In this document: one piece after another, positions 42,198 to 48,298 of the stretch
Layout of the letters: each line of letters opens with the position of its first letter
Numbering within the stretch: position 1 is the stretch's first letter
Assembly: GCA_038741495.1 (NCBI GenBank)
Contig: JAVYKX010000001.1
Span: 180,918 to 244,917 of the forward strand
Length of the DNA: 64,000 nucleotides
Source of the DNA: Thermofilum sp.
Lineage (GTDB): Archaea; Thermoproteota; Thermoprotei; Thermofilales; Thermofilaceae
Direction of reading: 5' to 3'
Position numbers and translations under genes: made by a program
The notes under the pieces: model-generated
Databases searched by the model: none
What the model was told of the DNA's origin: nothing
Seen by the model: the letters and a program-made list of their open reading frames with translations, nothing else

Positions 42198-42887
42198 ATG
42201 ACGGGGATCCCGCTAGCCATACTGGCCGGGGGCGAGGGGCGGAGGCTAGGAGGCTCGTATAAAGCTAAGCTATGCCTCTGCGGCAAGCCCCTGCTCCTAC
42301 ATGTGCTCGAAAGCTTAGCACCTTCGTTCTCCCGAGTGATAATAGTCGTTCACGAAGAGAAGCAGAGAGAGGAGCTCAGCGGTCTCGTGGAGAGCGGGGC
42401 TGCTGTGGTGCGTGATTGCGTGGAGGTACGATCCCCGCTCGCAGGGATATACACTGCCGCGCATGAGTTCGCGAGAGGGTTTTTCGCCGTAGCACCTGTG
42501 GACACGCCTTTCCTGCGCCCCACTGCCTACAGCCGTATGCTGGTGCTGGCAAAGAACTACGACGCTGTGGTGCCGCTGTGGCCTAACGGCTACCTCGAGC
42601 CGCTCATTGCAATCTACCGTGCCGAGAAAGTTCTAGAGACCGCACCTACTCTCCTAGCGAAGGGCGACGGTAGAGTGCAAGCTCTACTAAAGAGCATTAG
42701 AAGCTACCTCGCCCCCGTAAGCGAGGTGTTCGATGACCCCGCTCTCGAAGCGTTTAACGTGAATACTCGCCACAATTTAGCGCGTGCGGAGGCCATCTGC
42801 TCGGGTAAGGATGGGTACCTCCACCACGCGGCAGCCGCTGAGAGTCCAGGCTTTCACCGAGCCTCCGGAGCGGATAAGCCACAGTAA
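42198..42887 (+). CDS. mobA: Molybdenum cofactor guanylyltransferase MobA-like protein
   Basis: MobA attaches GMP to molybdopterin. The 229 residues from the ATG at 42198 show LAILAGGEGRRLGGSYKAKL (nucleotide and phosphate binding), VVRDCVEVRSPLAGIYTAAH and APVDTPFLRPTAY (metal aspartate). AOR-type enzymes use non-nucleotide pterin, so the target may be another enzyme or the protein may have a related nucleotidyltransferase role. A GTG at 42183 is an alternative, since CTTATAACG near 42152 would give a leaderless start there. The last 37 codons overlap the convergent JAMM gene by 111 bases. Confidence 0.8.
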   Translation: MTGIPLAILAGGEGRRLGGSYKAKLCLCGKPLLLHVLESLAPSFSRVIIVVHEEKQREELSGLVESGAAVVRDCVEVRSPLAGIYTAAHEFARGFFAVAPVDTPFLRPTAYSRMLVLAKNYDAVVPLWPNGYLEPLIAIYRAEKVLETAPTLLAKGDGRVQALLKSIRSYLAPVSEVFDDPALEAFNVNTRHNLARAEAICSGKDGYLHHAAAAESPGFHRASGADKPQ

Positions 42888-43214
42888 ACCTGCTCTCCGC
42901 ATACCCAGCACATCTAGTGGTGAAGGTCGGCTTTCTCCGCTAGCGTGAGCGTGGAAGATCCCTACTAATTCGAGCCCTTTCTCCGCGATCTGAGCTATAG
43001 CGCTCAGCACGCTTTCTGGACGCGCCTCAAAAAAGCCCGGCCGACGAACCGCTTCAACCGGCACGAGCTCTCTCACCGCGACGAAACCCTCGGTCATCTT
43101 TCCCCCTAGGAGGTATACTTCCCCCGGCTCGGTGGACAGCAGACGGTTGAGGAGGGCTTCGTCGACCATAACAGCCCGTACTCCTGAAGTTTGAGAAACA
43201 CCTTTCGCGCACAC
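42777..43214 (-). CDS. JAMM/MPN+ metalloprotease
   Basis: The 145-residue protein contains the full JAMM zinc site: glutamate E32 in PGEVYLLGG, and H88-x-H90-x7-S98-x2-D101 in GIFHAHASGESRPSPLDVLG. Archaeal single-domain JAMM proteases release ubiquitin-like SAMP/MoaD proteins from targets or precursors. Here MoaD with a free GG end is encoded 4.5 kb away in the same metal-cofactor locus, so MoaD-type conjugates are plausible substrates. That is inference. The gene begins at a GTG 12 nt after the M42 peptidase stop and overlaps the mobA 3' end by 111 bases. Confidence 0.85.
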   Translation of the reverse strand: MCAKGVSQTSGVRAVMVDEALLNRLLSTEPGEVYLLGGKMTEGFVAVRELVPVEAVRRPGFFEARPESVLSAIAQIAEKGLELVGIFHAHASGESRPSPLDVLGMRRAGLLWLIRSGGSVKAWTLSGCRVVEVPILTRADGLRTR

Positions 43215-43226
43215 GCTCAGCTTAGC

Positions 43227-44249
43227 TCACCGCTCTTCCGTGGGCCAAGGGTTCTCTATGATTAACCGGAGCAGCTGCACTGCGAGGTCAATATCTTTCT
43301 TGAAGGCGACCGAAGCTGGCGTGTGAATGTACCTGACGGGGACCGAGATAGCTGAAGTTTCAGCACCCCTCGTAATGAAGCTCCCGCTGTCAGTCGCGCT
43401 GTAAGGCGATACCTGCAGCTGGTAGGGGATCGACCTCTCCTCGGCAAGCTGGCGAATATGGCTGACAAGCCTCGTTGATGCGATAATTCCTCTATCCACT
43501 ACCCTGATAGCGGGGCCTTTTCCGGTAACCGTGATACTCCTATCCTCAGGCACGCCGGGAATATCGTTAGCAATCGTTCCCTCAACTGCGATCGCGTAGT
43601 TGGGTTCTAGCTCGTGAGCTAGAACGCTCGCACCCCTCAAACCCACCTCCTCCTGGACCGTAAAAGCTACTGCCACGCTGCCCTCCTCTACCGCCTTCGC
43701 GTTCCTAAGGGCTTCAAGCAGCGCGTAACAGCCCACGCGGTCATCGAGAGCCTTTCCGATGACCCTTCCACCAGCCTCCCTATAGTTACCGACGAATGAC
43801 ACCGGAGTTCCAACGTTCACCCCCATGGCGTGGGCCTCCTCCCTAGAGGAAGCACCTATGTCGATGAAGAGGTCCTCGAACGCGAGAGGCACCTGCGCAG
43901 AACCCTTGCCGTGAGGAGGCTGCGCGCCGAAAACCCCGAAAACATCCTCCTTGGCTCCCATTACGATAACCTCTTTCCCGAGGGCGACCTCGGGAGACAC
44001 CCCGCCCAGGGGGGCTACGCGGAGGAAACCCTTCTCGTCGATGTGACGGACCACGAACCCCACCTCGTCCATGTGAGCTGCGATGACCATGAGGGGCCTT
44101 CCATCACCGAGGATGACGTAAACGTTCCCCAGAGAGTCGACGACGGGCTCGAATCCCATTTCCTCGAGCTCCTCGAAGATGATCTCTCTCACACGCTCCT
44201 CGAAGCCTGAAGGCGCTGGGGCGTTCACGAGGCGTGACAGCAGGCTCAT
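43227..44249 (-). CDS. M42 family aminopeptidase (TET/endoglucanase-like)
   Basis: M42 peptidases form large tetrahedral (TET) complexes that trim peptides. Metal ligands are visible: H in VIAAHMDEVGFVV, D in GKALDDRVGCYALLEAL, the catalytic EE in FTVQEEVGLRGA, and the later ligands in IAVEGTIANDIPG and the C-terminal PVRYIHTPASVAFK. I chose the ATG at 44249 (MSLLSRLVNAPAPSGFEE) because it matches the family start. The frame extends upstream to 44297. It is followed directly by the JAMM gene, and both are likely one transcript. Confidence 0.92.
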   Translation of the reverse strand: MSLLSRLVNAPAPSGFEERVREIIFEELEEMGFEPVVDSLGNVYVILGDGRPLMVIAAHMDEVGFVVRHIDEKGFLRVAPLGGVSPEVALGKEVIVMGAKEDVFGVFGAQPPHGKGSAQVPLAFEDLFIDIGASSREEAHAMGVNVGTPVSFVGNYREAGGRVIGKALDDRVGCYALLEALRNAKAVEEGSVAVAFTVQEEVGLRGASVLAHELEPNYAIAVEGTIANDIPGVPEDRSITVTGKGPAIRVVDRGIIASTRLVSHIRQLAEERSIPYQLQVSPYSATDSGSFITRGAETSAISVPVRYIHTPASVAFKKDIDLAVQLLRLIIENPWPTEER

Positions 44250-44324
44250 AGCGCTTGGAATTGCAGGAAGAGCTAGAAATATTTTGGTTCTAAGCACTTT
44301 CTGCCGCGGGTCTTAAGCAGTGAG

Positions 44325-44348
44325 CGATATGTTTATATAAAAATATCG
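44325..44348. promoter_or_regulatory. 24-bp near-perfect palindrome enclosing the AOR TATA box
   Basis: CGATAT (44325-44330) and ATATCG (44343-44348) flank TTTATATAAA (44332-44341), itself a palindrome and the TATA box. Only one base pair (44331/44342) breaks full symmetry. A protein bound here would block TBP. The CG-bounded, ATAT-rich halves and the 24-bp span resemble the bacterial ModE operator as I remember it. A ModE-like gene lies at 47948. The ATG of AOR is 36 nt downstream. Confidence 0.65.
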
Positions 44349-44384
44349 TAAACCTTTTTACTCGGAGAAGCGCCAGAAACCACG

Positions 44385-46235
44385 ATGAAGGGAGGCTACG
44401 TCAACCGAATTCTTTTCGTGAACCTGAGCGATGGCACAATCCGGACTGAGCCCGTTGACCCGGCTGTTGCGGAGAAGTACATAGGAGGGAAGGGCTACGC
44501 GCTATACGTCTTCTACAGGCGGTACCTGAAGGAGTACATCGCGAAGGGAATATCCCCCAGAGACATCGACCCGCTGGGCCCGGAGAACGTGCTATTTCTC
44601 GGCACAGGCCCTGTGACCGGTATCGCCGGAGCTCCCGCACCCGGCAGGTACCACGCGATGGCTTTGAGGTCGCCGCTCACGGGCTCGGTGGGCAGCGCAA
44701 ACAGCGGAGGCGAATTCGGACCCTACCTGAAGTTCGCAGGCTACGACATGATTTTCATCGAGGGGGCTGCCGAGAAGCCTGTCTACATCGAGATTGTGGA
44801 TGGACACGTGGACATTAAGGATGCTTCGGATCTATGGGGCAGGAACGTTTTCGACACGACGAGAGTCTTGAAAGGTAGGGTGAAGGGCAAGAACGTGAGC
44901 GTCGCCTGTATTGGCCCAGCTGGCGAGAACCAGGTGCTCTTCGCCTGTATTATGAATGACGAGCACAGAGCTGCCGGCAGAACTGGCCTCGGCGCCGTCA
45001 TGGGCAGCAAGAAGCTGAAAGCCATCGTGGTCTCCGGCGAGCAGAGGCCCGAGGTCGCCAACCCCGAAGGCTTCCGCGAGCTATCGAAGCAGCTCGTCGA
45101 GCGCATGAGGAAGAACCCCGTGACGGGCGAGGGCCTGCCGAAGTACGGGACAGCGATCCTAGTCAACATCATCAACCAGGCAGGCGCGCTCCCGTTCAAG
45201 AACTGGCAGTTCGGCTACAACCCGGAGGCGGACAAGATCAGCGGTGAAACCCTCGAGAAGACTTACCTGATCGGGAGGAGGCCCTGCTGGGGCTGCCAGA
45301 TCGGCTGCGGCCGAGTGACGAAGGTTCCGAGCGGCCCCTACCAGATTCTCTACAGCGAAGGGCCCGAGTACGAGAGCATCTGGGCTCTCGGGAACTCTAC
45401 GGGAGTGATGGAGCTAGACGCAGTGGTGAAAGCGAACCACTTGTGCGACGAGCTCGGCATCGACCCCATCAGCATGGGCTCCACGATTGCCTGTGCGATG
45501 GAGCTCTACGAGAAGGGTTACATACCTGCTGAGGACCTCCAAGGCCTCGACATGCGCTTCGGGAACGCGGCGGCGCTCGTTGAGAGCATTTGGAGGACCG
45601 CATACAAGGCCGGGTTCGGCGCTAAGCTTGCTCTCGGCAGCAGGCGCTTAGCCGAGATGTACGGTGCGCCGGAGCTCTCAATGAGCGTTAAAGGCCTCGA
45701 GATGCCCGCTTACGACCCCAGGGGTGCTAAGGGTATAGGCCTCAACTATGCTACGGCGAACAGGGGAGGCTGCCACGTAACTGGTTACACGATCTCTCCG
45801 GAGATACTTGGAATACCGCAGAAGATTGACCCGCTAACGCCCGAAGGGAAGGCTTTCTGGACGAAGATCTTCCAGGATCTCACGAGCGTCGTGAACAGCG
45901 CGGTGAACTGCTTGTTCACCACATTCGAGATCGGCGCTAAGGATTACGCTGCATTGTTCAACACTATCGCTGGCTTTAACTTCACAGAGAATGATGTGCT
46001 CACGATTGGAGAGAGGATCTACAACCTTGAGAGGTACATAATGTCTCTCTACGGTTTCTCTGCTAAGGACGACACGCTGCCGCCGAGGCTCACGAAGGAG
46101 CCTATGCCCGAGGGGCCTGCAAAGGGCCAAGTGGTCGAGCTGGACAGGATGCTCAAGGAGTACTACGAGCTCAGGGGCTGGGTTAACGGCGTCCCGACCA
46201 AGGAGAAGCTGCAGCAGCTGGGCATCGAGCTCTAG
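44385..46235 (+). CDS. aor: Aldehyde:ferredoxin oxidoreductase (tungstopterin enzyme)
   Basis: AOR-family enzymes oxidise aldehydes to acids with ferredoxin, using a tungsten bis-pterin and one [4Fe-4S] cluster. The 616-residue protein begins with GYVNRILFVNLSDGTIR and has the pterin-binding GTGPVTGIAGAPAPGRYHAM and AAGRTGLGAVMGSKKLKAI. Cluster cysteines are C301, C304 and C308 (CWGCQIGC) and C509 (NCLFTTFE). Which member of the family (AOR, FOR, GAPOR, WOR) it is cannot be settled from sequence. It is followed after 15 nt by a convergent polyferredoxin. Confidence 0.95.
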   Translation: MKGGYVNRILFVNLSDGTIRTEPVDPAVAEKYIGGKGYALYVFYRRYLKEYIAKGISPRDIDPLGPENVLFLGTGPVTGIAGAPAPGRYHAMALRSPLTGSVGSANSGGEFGPYLKFAGYDMIFIEGAAEKPVYIEIVDGHVDIKDASDLWGRNVFDTTRVLKGRVKGKNVSVACIGPAGENQVLFACIMNDEHRAAGRTGLGAVMGSKKLKAIVVSGEQRPEVANPEGFRELSKQLVERMRKNPVTGEGLPKYGTAILVNIINQAGALPFKNWQFGYNPEADKISGETLEKTYLIGRRPCWGCQIGCGRVTKVPSGPYQILYSEGPEYESIWALGNSTGVMELDAVVKANHLCDELGIDPISMGSTIACAMELYEKGYIPAEDLQGLDMRFGNAAALVESIWRTAYKAGFGAKLALGSRRLAEMYGAPELSMSVKGLEMPAYDPRGAKGIGLNYATANRGGCHVTGYTISPEILGIPQKIDPLTPEGKAFWTKIFQDLTSVVNSAVNCLFTTFEIGAKDYAALFNTIAGFNFTENDVLTIGERIYNLERYIMSLYGFSAKDDTLPPRLTKEPMPEGPAKGQVVELDRMLKEYYELRGWVNGVPTKEKLQQLGIEL

Positions 46236-46250: not shown

Positions 46251-47630
46251 TTAAGTTATAAGGATTTCTTTTTTAGTTATTTGCTGAGTTATTTCTCTCA
46301 CGAGGCTATCGGCCTTGCACTTGCTACAGAGGTATAGCCCATCCACCGCTCGCTCAGGAGCTCTCTTCTCACGAAGTCTTTTCTCTAAGGCCTTAATCTT
46401 GGTGAGAGGGCCTATTGGTGCACCGCACACTCTGCAGCGGGCGACATCGCTGCGTACAAGCGTCGAGTATCTGCCGGCAAGAGTCTCGGCGGCAGCTTTT
46501 TTCTCGAGGGTTATTGCCGCCTCAGGGCATACTCTAGCACAGGTACTGCATCCTAAGCAGAGCGAGGAGGTGAAGAGTAAGCTCACGCTCTCAGCATCTT
46601 CAAGGTACTTCACCGCTTTCGTGGGGCATGCGCTGGCGCACGCTCCGCAGAGCGAGCACTTCTCGCTATCTACTCTTATACTGAAGAGTGGCAACAGGCG
46701 TAGCTTCGTTTCAGCCACTTTAAGCTCGAAGCTCGAGGCCAGAAGGGGTAGGGTATGCCGCGTCGCCTCCAAGGCTCTAAGAGGCCCGCCTAACACCTCT
46801 TCAGCCTCGCTGATAAGCTCAAGGTGCTGTCTAGCCGCCAGCCTCTTGTCGCAATCTTCTCTAGCGCAGAGGAACTCTATGCTAACCCCTTTTAGCTTCG
46901 CGTAGAGGTACTCGTGCAGCCGAAAGCTGGCAATGCAAGGTACTTCGAAGATAAGCGCCCTGTCGCCAGATTTCTCGTAAGCGGCTCCACGGCTTCTTGA
47001 GCAGGCTGCTATTATTTTTCTCAGGCCTTTCTCCGCAGCTTTCTCGATCAAAAGCCTCACGGCTGTAGGCGGCACTGCAGGCTGGTAGAGCAAGCCCGAG
47101 GGACAGCTGCTCGTACAAGCACCGCAGCCTACACATTTTTCTCGAATAGCTTCCGGGGGCTTGCCCTTTAAAGCCGAGTACGGGCAAGCTGGCAGGCAGA
47201 GAGAGCAGTGCCTGAGGTACCCGCACGTCTTCGTATCGACGTCAACCAGAGGTGTGTACCGGAGAGCTAGGCTAAGGCCTCTCTTCACGAGGTCGCGCCG
47301 GCTAAGTTCCCTCCCGACATCTACTGTGACGTGAAGCACGTACTTCGAAGCTTCCTCCAGGTACTCTCCCCAGAGCTCTATGAGGTCCTCCAAGCTTAGA
47401 GAGGAGAGAGATGTGTCCCTTTTCTCATCGATGAAGCGGATTCTCGGCCAGCGCGCCCCAACGCGCTCAAGCTCCACGTAGAAGTTTTCCCAGAACTCGG
47501 CGCTGCCAGGAGAACCTATAACGAGCACGCCGTCAGCATCCTCGGCAAGCTCCGCGATGCTGTAAATATCCTCGGCGGCTTTCTCCTCGCTGCTGAGAGC
47601 GAATACCCGGATATCCGCCATGCCAGCCAC
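46251..47630 (-). CDS. Polyferredoxin-type 4Fe-4S protein with MvhD-like segment
   Basis: The 459-residue protein holds four ferredoxin-like cysteine sets: HCSLCLPACP, CVGCGACTSSCP, CSLCGACASACP and CLGCSTCARVCP, each able to hold a [4Fe-4S] cluster. Two more CxxC pairs (CRVCG, CSKC) near the end could bind zinc or iron. A middle region (IAACSRSRG, IEFLCAREDCDKRLA) recalls MvhD-type proteins that pass electrons to heterodisulfide reductase-like partners. No membrane helix is seen. Placed tail to tail with AOR, it is a likely electron carrier for it, by inference. It starts at a GTG at 47630 or an ATG nine bases later. Confidence 0.82.
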   Translation of the reverse strand: MAGMADIRVFALSSEEKAAEDIYSIAELAEDADGVLVIGSPGSAEFWENFYVELERVGARWPRIRFIDEKRDTSLSSLSLEDLIELWGEYLEEASKYVLHVTVDVGRELSRRDLVKRGLSLALRYTPLVDVDTKTCGYLRHCSLCLPACPYSALKGKPPEAIREKCVGCGACTSSCPSGLLYQPAVPPTAVRLLIEKAAEKGLRKIIAACSRSRGAAYEKSGDRALIFEVPCIASFRLHEYLYAKLKGVSIEFLCAREDCDKRLAARQHLELISEAEEVLGGPLRALEATRHTLPLLASSFELKVAETKLRLLPLFSIRVDSEKCSLCGACASACPTKAVKYLEDAESVSLLFTSSLCLGCSTCARVCPEAAITLEKKAAAETLAGRYSTLVRSDVARCRVCGAPIGPLTKIKALEKRLREKRAPERAVDGLYLCSKCKADSLVREITQQITKKEILIT

Positions 47631-47652: not shown

Positions 47653-47666
47653 AGATAATTTTATCT
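47653..47666. promoter_or_regulatory. Symmetric TATA element between divergent polyferredoxin and MoaD genes
   Basis: AGATAA-TT-TTATCT is a perfect 14-bp palindrome. It lies about 25-30 nt from both start codons (47630 on minus, 47689 on plus), so one TBP site could fire both leaderless transcripts. Confidence 0.5.
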
Positions 47667-47688
47667 GCGTCCAGCAATTTTCAAGGTT

Positions 47689-47961
47689 GTGGTTAAAGTA
47701 AAGTTTCTGCTCTTCGCTACCCTCCGCGAGAAGTACGGGAGGAAAGAGGTTCTCGTAGATTGCGACGGCACCCTCGCCGATGCTGTGAGAAGAGCCTCAG
47801 AAATTCTGGGGCCTGAGTTCTACGGAGAGGTCTTCTCGGATAGCGAGGTGCGCAGGGATAGAATCATCCTGGTGAACGGTAGGCACGTTCAGTTCGCTAA
47901 GACCGAGGGGCTAGAGGAAGGTACTGTAGTCTCGATATTTCCCCCCATTGCGGGTGGCTGA
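47689..47961 (+). CDS. moaD: MoaD-family sulfur carrier protein
   Basis: MoaD carries a thiocarboxylate on its C-terminal glycine and donates sulfur to molybdopterin. Archaeal relatives (SAMPs) can also be attached to proteins like ubiquitin. The 90 residues show the beta-grasp pattern: KVKFLLFATLREKYG, then DAVRRASEILGPEF, IILVNGRHVQF and the end VVSIFPPIAGG with the required GG. The start is a GTG. It overlaps the ModE-like gene by 14 bases. With MobA and AOR it forms the pterin-cofactor part of this locus. Confidence 0.9.
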   Translation: MVKVKFLLFATLREKYGRKEVLVDCDGTLADAVRRASEILGPEFYGEVFSDSEVRRDRIILVNGRHVQFAKTEGLEEGTVVSIFPPIAGG

Positions 47962-48298
47962 TAGCTTGCTTAAGGTGAGGTACAAGATCTGGCTGGAGAG
48001 CGAAGGAGGTGTATCGATCGGAGAGGGCGGTATAGCTCTCCTCAGAGCCATAGATGAGGCTAAGTCTATCAGGGCTGCTGCCGAAAAGTTGGGAGTCTCC
48101 TACACTTTCGCATGGAACTACATCAGGCGTCTCGAGAGGGGTCTCGGCTGCAAGCTTGTAGTGGGTGTCAGGGGAGGGAGAGAGGGAGGGGGGGCTGAGC
48201 TCACGGAGGATGCAAGGCACCTGCTCACCCTTTTCGAAGAGGCGAAAGCCGCTGTCGACGGCATCGTCGTGAAGCTGAACTCCCGTAGTCTTGCGTAG
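47948..48298 (+). CDS. ModE-like winged-helix regulator without metal-binding domain
   Basis: The 116-residue protein matches the N-terminal DNA-binding domain of ModE: RYKIWLESEGGVSIGEGGIA, the helix-turn-helix SIRAAAEKLGVSYTFAWNYI and RLERGLGCKLVVGVRGGREG as wing, then ELTEDARHLLTLFEEAKAAV as dimer helix. The C-terminal molbindin (MOP) domain that senses molybdate or tungstate in bacterial ModE is missing. Sensing may depend on a separate protein. The exact start (GTGs near 47948-47951 or a TTG at 47963) is uncertain. It is translationally coupled to moaD. Confidence 0.82.
   Translation: MRVADSLLKVRYKIWLESEGGVSIGEGGIALLRAIDEAKSIRAAAEKLGVSYTFAWNYIRRLERGLGCKLVVGVRGGREGGGAELTEDARHLLTLFEEAKAAVDGIVVKLNSRSLA

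Follow-up and report, generated by a model that had tools for sequence, protein, structure and literature searches.

In anaerobic thermophilic archaea tungsten enzymes have a central place, and no described regulator of these enzymes in such organisms was found in our literature search. Studholme and Pau are said to have dealt with ModE in Archaea in 2003, where the likeness to the present case would be a ModE-type element and its regulator in archaea. In bacteria, the E. coli modA operator CGTTATATTGTCGCCTACATAACG spans 24 bp from CG to CG, and the published ModE consensus ATCGNTATATA-N6-TATATANCGAT has the same span (PMC545781). HTH-only ModE proteins are also known: the single-domain ModE of Desulfovibrio and Desulfotalea consists of the DNA-binding domain alone, its sensor is unknown, and the site predicted at Desulfovibrio mod operons is CGGTCACG-N14-CGTGACCG (PMC545781). 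In Methanosarcinales modE is linked to modABC and nitrogenase (PMC9765008). Regulation of a tungsten aldehyde oxidoreductase has been attributed to TaoR (Rajeev 2019 as cited in PMC11980592).

The locus analysed here lies in a window of 64,000 nt of Thermofilum sp. DNA (the window being the whole stretch that was analysed). It resembles the E. coli ModE regulon (modA operator; moa operon) in its 24-bp CG-to-CG palindrome, the winged-helix fold of the putative regulator and a moaA target. It differs from it in that the archaeal regulator lacks TOBE/MOP domains, the main target would be a tungsten AOR whose promoter is of the archaeal TBP/TFB kind, and the scanned transporter-type genes carry no site. 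Unlike the Methanosarcinales ModE, the candidate targets here are AOR and Moco genes and the protein is HTH-only. It shares with the Desulfovibrio/Desulfotalea protein a DNA-binding domain standing alone, but the predicted Desulfovibrio site is unlike the Thermofilum element. With TaoR, as far as the citing paper describes it, the common point would be control of a tungsten aldehyde oxidoreductase; TaoR has a different DNA-binding domain plus a PBP-like domain, whereas the protein at 47948-48298 is of the HTH_1/ModE type without PBP. Computation showed that the operator is conserved, and gave the content of the regulon, its co-location with modE, the ModE fold and the BRE/TATA offsets; the features of the locus are collected in Table 1.

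Table 1. Coordinates of the putative operator, promoter elements and genes at the AOR locus (window positions).
Feature	Position	Strand	Remarks
Operator-like palindrome, 24 bp, arms CGATAT/ATATCG	44325..44348	.	Conserved form CGATATTT-N8-AAATATCG
Alternative BRE+TATA inside the palindrome, cgatatgTTTATATA	44325..44339	+	Score 12.2; predicted leader about 24 nt
Downstream BRE+TATA, conserved at AOR, cgtaaacCTTTTTAC	44347..44361	+	Score 8.2; predicts a nearly leaderless mRNA, with a leader of about 2 nt
Gene of an AOR-family tungsten enzyme, putative operator target	44385..46235	+	Domains AFOR_N and AFOR_C
moaD-like gene (ThiS/MoaD family), first in the moaD-modE pair	47689..47961	+	Directly between AOR and modE in several relatives
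HTH-only ModE-like regulator, proposed operator binder	47948..48298	+	116 aa, read from a TTG start; 14-bp overlap with moaD

A sequence-only reading of this DNA had described a near-perfect 24-bp palindrome with one mismatch around the TATA box of AOR, and both the palindrome (CGATATGTTTATATAAAAATATCG, 11 of 12 pairs matched, single mismatch G7/A18) and the AOR start at 44385 are correct. Its comparison with the bacterial ModE operator is also borne out by the arms and by the CG-to-CG span, which is the 24 bp of E. coli modA and of the published consensus (PMC545781); the element is an inverted repeat whose arms are rich in T/A and whose CG ends lie 24 bp apart. No other 24-bp palindrome of the window has one bad pair or fewer, and Markov-shuffled windows contain 0.2 on average. 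Conservation aside, the bare palindrome is only mildly unusual, a few such being expected genome-wide. In the genome-wide tests, which were pattern searches, CGATAT-N12-ATATCG occurred once in the 1.6-Mb genome, at the AOR site, and there was no second match to the full AOR element at up to 3 mismatches anywhere in the Thermofilum sp. genome. The exact pattern misses the moaA site of the same genome, whose arms are CGTTAT/ATAACG. The palindrome stands far above chance because its arms are conserved across AOR orthologs and because a matrix built without AOR sites finds it.

An AOR ortholog was present in all 7 genomes of the genus (85-90% identity), and 4 further orthologs from other genera (52-78% identity) also have the 24-bp element. 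The conserved form lies 33-59 bp before the gene in 11/11 orthologs having upstream sequence (G004, where the contig is cut, is left out of this count). When the upstream regions of the genus were aligned they were found to diverge and to share little beyond the 24-bp element; across the AOR orthologs column conservation is 90-95% in the arms, 62% in the central 8 bp and about 50% in the flanks. A matrix made from non-AOR sites only recovered the site upstream of all 11 AOR orthologs, and among 22,000 shuffles 10 of these sites were reached by at most one and the G015 site by 20. An AOR-derived pattern had been used to gather the non-AOR sites in the first place, which makes the reverse test the cleaner one: an AOR-only matrix, applied to moaA genes picked by protein similarity, detected sites in 10 of 17 genomes from the order, Thermofilum sp. 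included. Comparison among relatives thus indicates that the palindrome at AOR is a functional, conserved regulatory element.

The moaA site of the window's genome is CGTTATACTCGATCGAGAATAACG, 32 nt upstream of the gene, and its arms are identical to those of the E. coli modA operator; across genomes the moaA sites lie 12-57 nt ahead of the start codon used. Further sites were found upstream of moeA in G017, of a second AOR-family gene (a paralog) in G022 and of molybdopterin oxidoreductases of relatives, and a domain check confirmed the domains of these target genes (AOR, moaA, moeA and molybdopterin oxidoreductases). At no more than one mismatch, CGATATTT-N8-AAATATCG has 10 matches in the genus, all beside AOR or molybdopterin-oxidoreductase genes, although at one of them (G016:C1:301009) the nearest gene is another, divergent one. 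The W-form pattern gave 18 genus matches vs 2 for the reversed control. In G003, which has no modE, there were 12 matches vs 3 for the control, and 3 of the 12 are a tandem copy. Matches that had 3 mismatches and lay far away from any Mo/W gene, such as G000:C3:62355 within an ORF, were treated as chance. The upstream scan found no site at the Thermofilum sp. genome's own molybdopterin oxidoreductases. The sequence-only reading had proposed looking for sites ahead of pterin and transport genes. The pterin side holds for moaA and moeA, with Mo/W enzyme genes in addition; the transport side does not, since the genus scan showed no operator-type site near SBP_bac_11 (Wtp-like) substrate-binding protein genes, the only transporter-type genes scanned. 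The reading of the element as a ModE-type operator is well supported.

The same reading had placed a ModE-like gene 3.6 kb from the palindrome in the same locus, and the ORF and the distance are as it said. Among solved structures the best sequence match of the encoded protein is ModE (2ijl 6e-8, 1o7l 2.9e-5). Its predicted fold (pLDDT 88) has E. coli ModE 1b9m as its nearest match, with Z 14.8 and an rmsd of 2.5 across 101 residues, and the next family, LysR domains, reaches Z 10.8 at most; sequence and fold thus agree on an N-terminal ModE-type winged helix. TIGR00637 (ModE domain) scores 69.5 bits, below the curated cut-off of 98.5, and matches 7/7 orthologs of the short ModE at E 0.001 or better. 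The motifs SYxFAW (recognition) and RGG (wing) are kept in all 7 and resemble SYKSAW and GGKGGGG of E. coli. The domain search detected the HTH only and none of the TOBE/MOP molybdate/tungstate-binding domains; because these C-terminal domains are absent we call the protein ModE-like rather than a full ModE. With no metal-binding domain in the short ModE, metal sensing by this protein, and with it direct tungsten or molybdenum dependence, is a candidate property only. A bacterial relative (L046, Syntrophaceae) lay on a fragment without informative context and was set aside.

In 9 genomes with informative context modE stands beside Mo/W genes, in the orders AOR-moaD-modE or AOR-modE, moaA-moaC-modE (G021, G023) or in a molybdopterin-oxidoreductase operon (G016); in G016 it is away from the AOR locus and the promoter of its operon bears the site. 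In G024 and G026 the short modE has other contexts. A moaA site is found in 8 of 9 genomes with short modE vs 2 of 8 without (Fisher p 0.013, uncorrected for relatedness and modest by count), and the two exceptions, with a moaA site and no short modE, are incomplete genomes. Counting against the main reading, no short modE was found in the site-bearing G005, G006 and G022 (57, 76 and 95% complete; in G006 AOR is at a contig end), and G017 has the short modE and a moeA site with a moaA lacking one. The protein at 47948-48298 is nonetheless the most likely binder of the palindrome. The moaD-modE promoter of the window (AGATAATTTTATCTG, 47653-47667) has a strong, nearly palindromic BRE/TATA and predicts a leaderless moaD mRNA; unlike in relatives with modE inside the AOR operon, no ModE-type site was found there. 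A polyferredoxin-like gene (46251-47630, minus strand), a possible electron partner of AOR, separates AOR from moaD-modE here and in G015 and G012, not in G011, G013, G014 and G016. A JAB-type (desampylase-like) protease gene (42777-43214) and the MoaD/SAMP-like gene share one neighbourhood and are close in relatives too.

For promoter positions a model was built from 130 upstream regions, with regions that bear site arms kept out of the training. It gave a BRE/TATA of about AGAAAgcTTTAWA with its start near -36, which would leave most mRNAs with almost no leader. In 9 of 11 AOR orthologs the predicted TATA starts +5 bp past the palindrome, and in the window the BRE of this downstream element shares the palindrome's terminal CG. 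At moaA and moeA the TATA is at +0, directly after the palindrome, and the right arm ATAACG doubles as BRE; the right arm is ATAACG in 8/8 cases where it serves as BRE vs 1/9 elsewhere. At molybdopterin-oxidoreductase genes the TATA is mostly 13-17 bp past the palindrome. The earlier claim that the palindrome encloses the AOR TATA box therefore holds in part: this genome has a strong TATA-like TTTATATA inside, but the conserved BRE/TATA of the relatives lies just downstream, and at AOR of G012, G006, G021 and G023 the inside box is weak or missing. By this model both starts may be possible for the Thermofilum sp. AOR. On the minus strand (44243-44348) the palindrome precedes the divergent M42 peptidase gene as well, and in that direction the core of the palindrome looks like a TATA (score 11.5); the M42 gene may have its own promoter near 44286.

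Taken as a whole, the palindrome is in our judgement quite probably the operator of a ModE-type Mo/W-cofactor regulon bound by a short ModE-like homodimer; binding itself, the sign of regulation and the signal are what we infer. A homodimer of the 47948-48298 protein would place one winged helix on each CGATATTT half-site, and the same dimer would act at the promoters of AOR, moaA, moeA and the molybdopterin oxidoreductases and, in the majority of genomes, on its own operon as well. At AOR the site ends 2 bp into the BRE, upstream of TATA, and a bound dimer adjacent to TFB/TBP would more likely recruit them (activation); at moaA it would cover the BRE, which is the right half-site itself (repression). 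This assignment is favoured because published activators lie upstream of the BRE and repressors over BRE/TATA: the CopR motif directly upstream of BRE leads to activation (PMC7830388), and TrmBL1 activates from upstream while TrmB represses over BRE/TATA (PMC4706686). For AOR, activation would be somewhat the likelier sign, with repression keeping a good minority share. Lacking a metal-binding domain, the short ModE probably receives its signal, W/Mo or cofactor status, through another protein. We tentatively go further, in a bolder version to which we give perhaps one chance in three, and suggest a metal-blind ModE: a stand-alone DNA-binding domain that would run an archaeal tungsten-cofactor regulon by TFB/TBP docking, its half-site being the BRE at moaA. 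It would not bind the oxyanion itself but would be informed of cofactor or metal status by a separate partner, for instance the MoaD encoded alongside it or a sensor of the PBP type.

The same operator and protein could also act as a plain repressor, the dimer covering the AOR TATA/BRE, blocking TBP/TFB and being released when W or cofactor is available, which is the switch that the sequence-only reading had proposed. We regard this as a serious, if less probable, alternative: the best TATA in this genome is the one inside the palindrome, the sole good TATA of moaA in G021 and G023 is likewise inside, and the moaA sites cover the BRE fully. The blocking of TBP at an enclosed TATA is weakened, however, by the loss or weakness of the inside box in the relatives named above and by the downstream BRE/TATA kept at +5. 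One might also think of an AT-rich promoter palindrome of a generic kind, to which no regulator is dedicated, as archaeal TATA boxes are near-symmetric and a bare one-mismatch palindrome of 24 bp is not rare genome-wide; but what is conserved is the CG-ended arms and not the TATA core, and most of the close matches lie at Mo/W genes. On conservation and distribution we rejected this reading, which seems to us very improbable.

It is also conceivable, though unlikely, that the operator is bound by larger regulators in which a ModE-like HTH is fused to a PBP-like domain (PF12727). These could be direct sensors of tungstate or molybdate, and the short ModE would then be a partner of theirs or unrelated. 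Such fusion proteins occur in 7/7 genomes of the genus plus G020-G022, and in G022 AOR-family sites and a fusion protein are present where short modE was not found. In this genome one of them (L209; G000:C1:487504-490702) adjoins a Wtp-like binding-protein gene and is a candidate direct tungstate/molybdate sensor. Yet no fusion protein was found in G023, which has AOR and moaA sites; G020 carries one and has no moaA site; no such site was seen upstream of the scanned PBP-fusion or Wtp-like genes; and the fusion genes lie outside the site-bearing operons, the short modE inside them. The fusion class fits the site distribution less well than the short ModE. Another ModE-like HTH (L212, G000:C4:31183-31446) forms the C-terminal end of a 365-aa protein with, by eye, an N-terminal radical-SAM-like cysteine pattern.

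The short ModE-like dimer, as the preferred binder, would give archaeal tungsten enzymes a candidate regulator protein whose site is defined, whose targets can be listed and from which clear predictions follow. With it comes the question of how metal is sensed by a ModE that lacks the sensor domain. The arrangement at these genes would represent a bacterial-type operator fitted to an archaeal promoter, with a half-site shared with the BRE.
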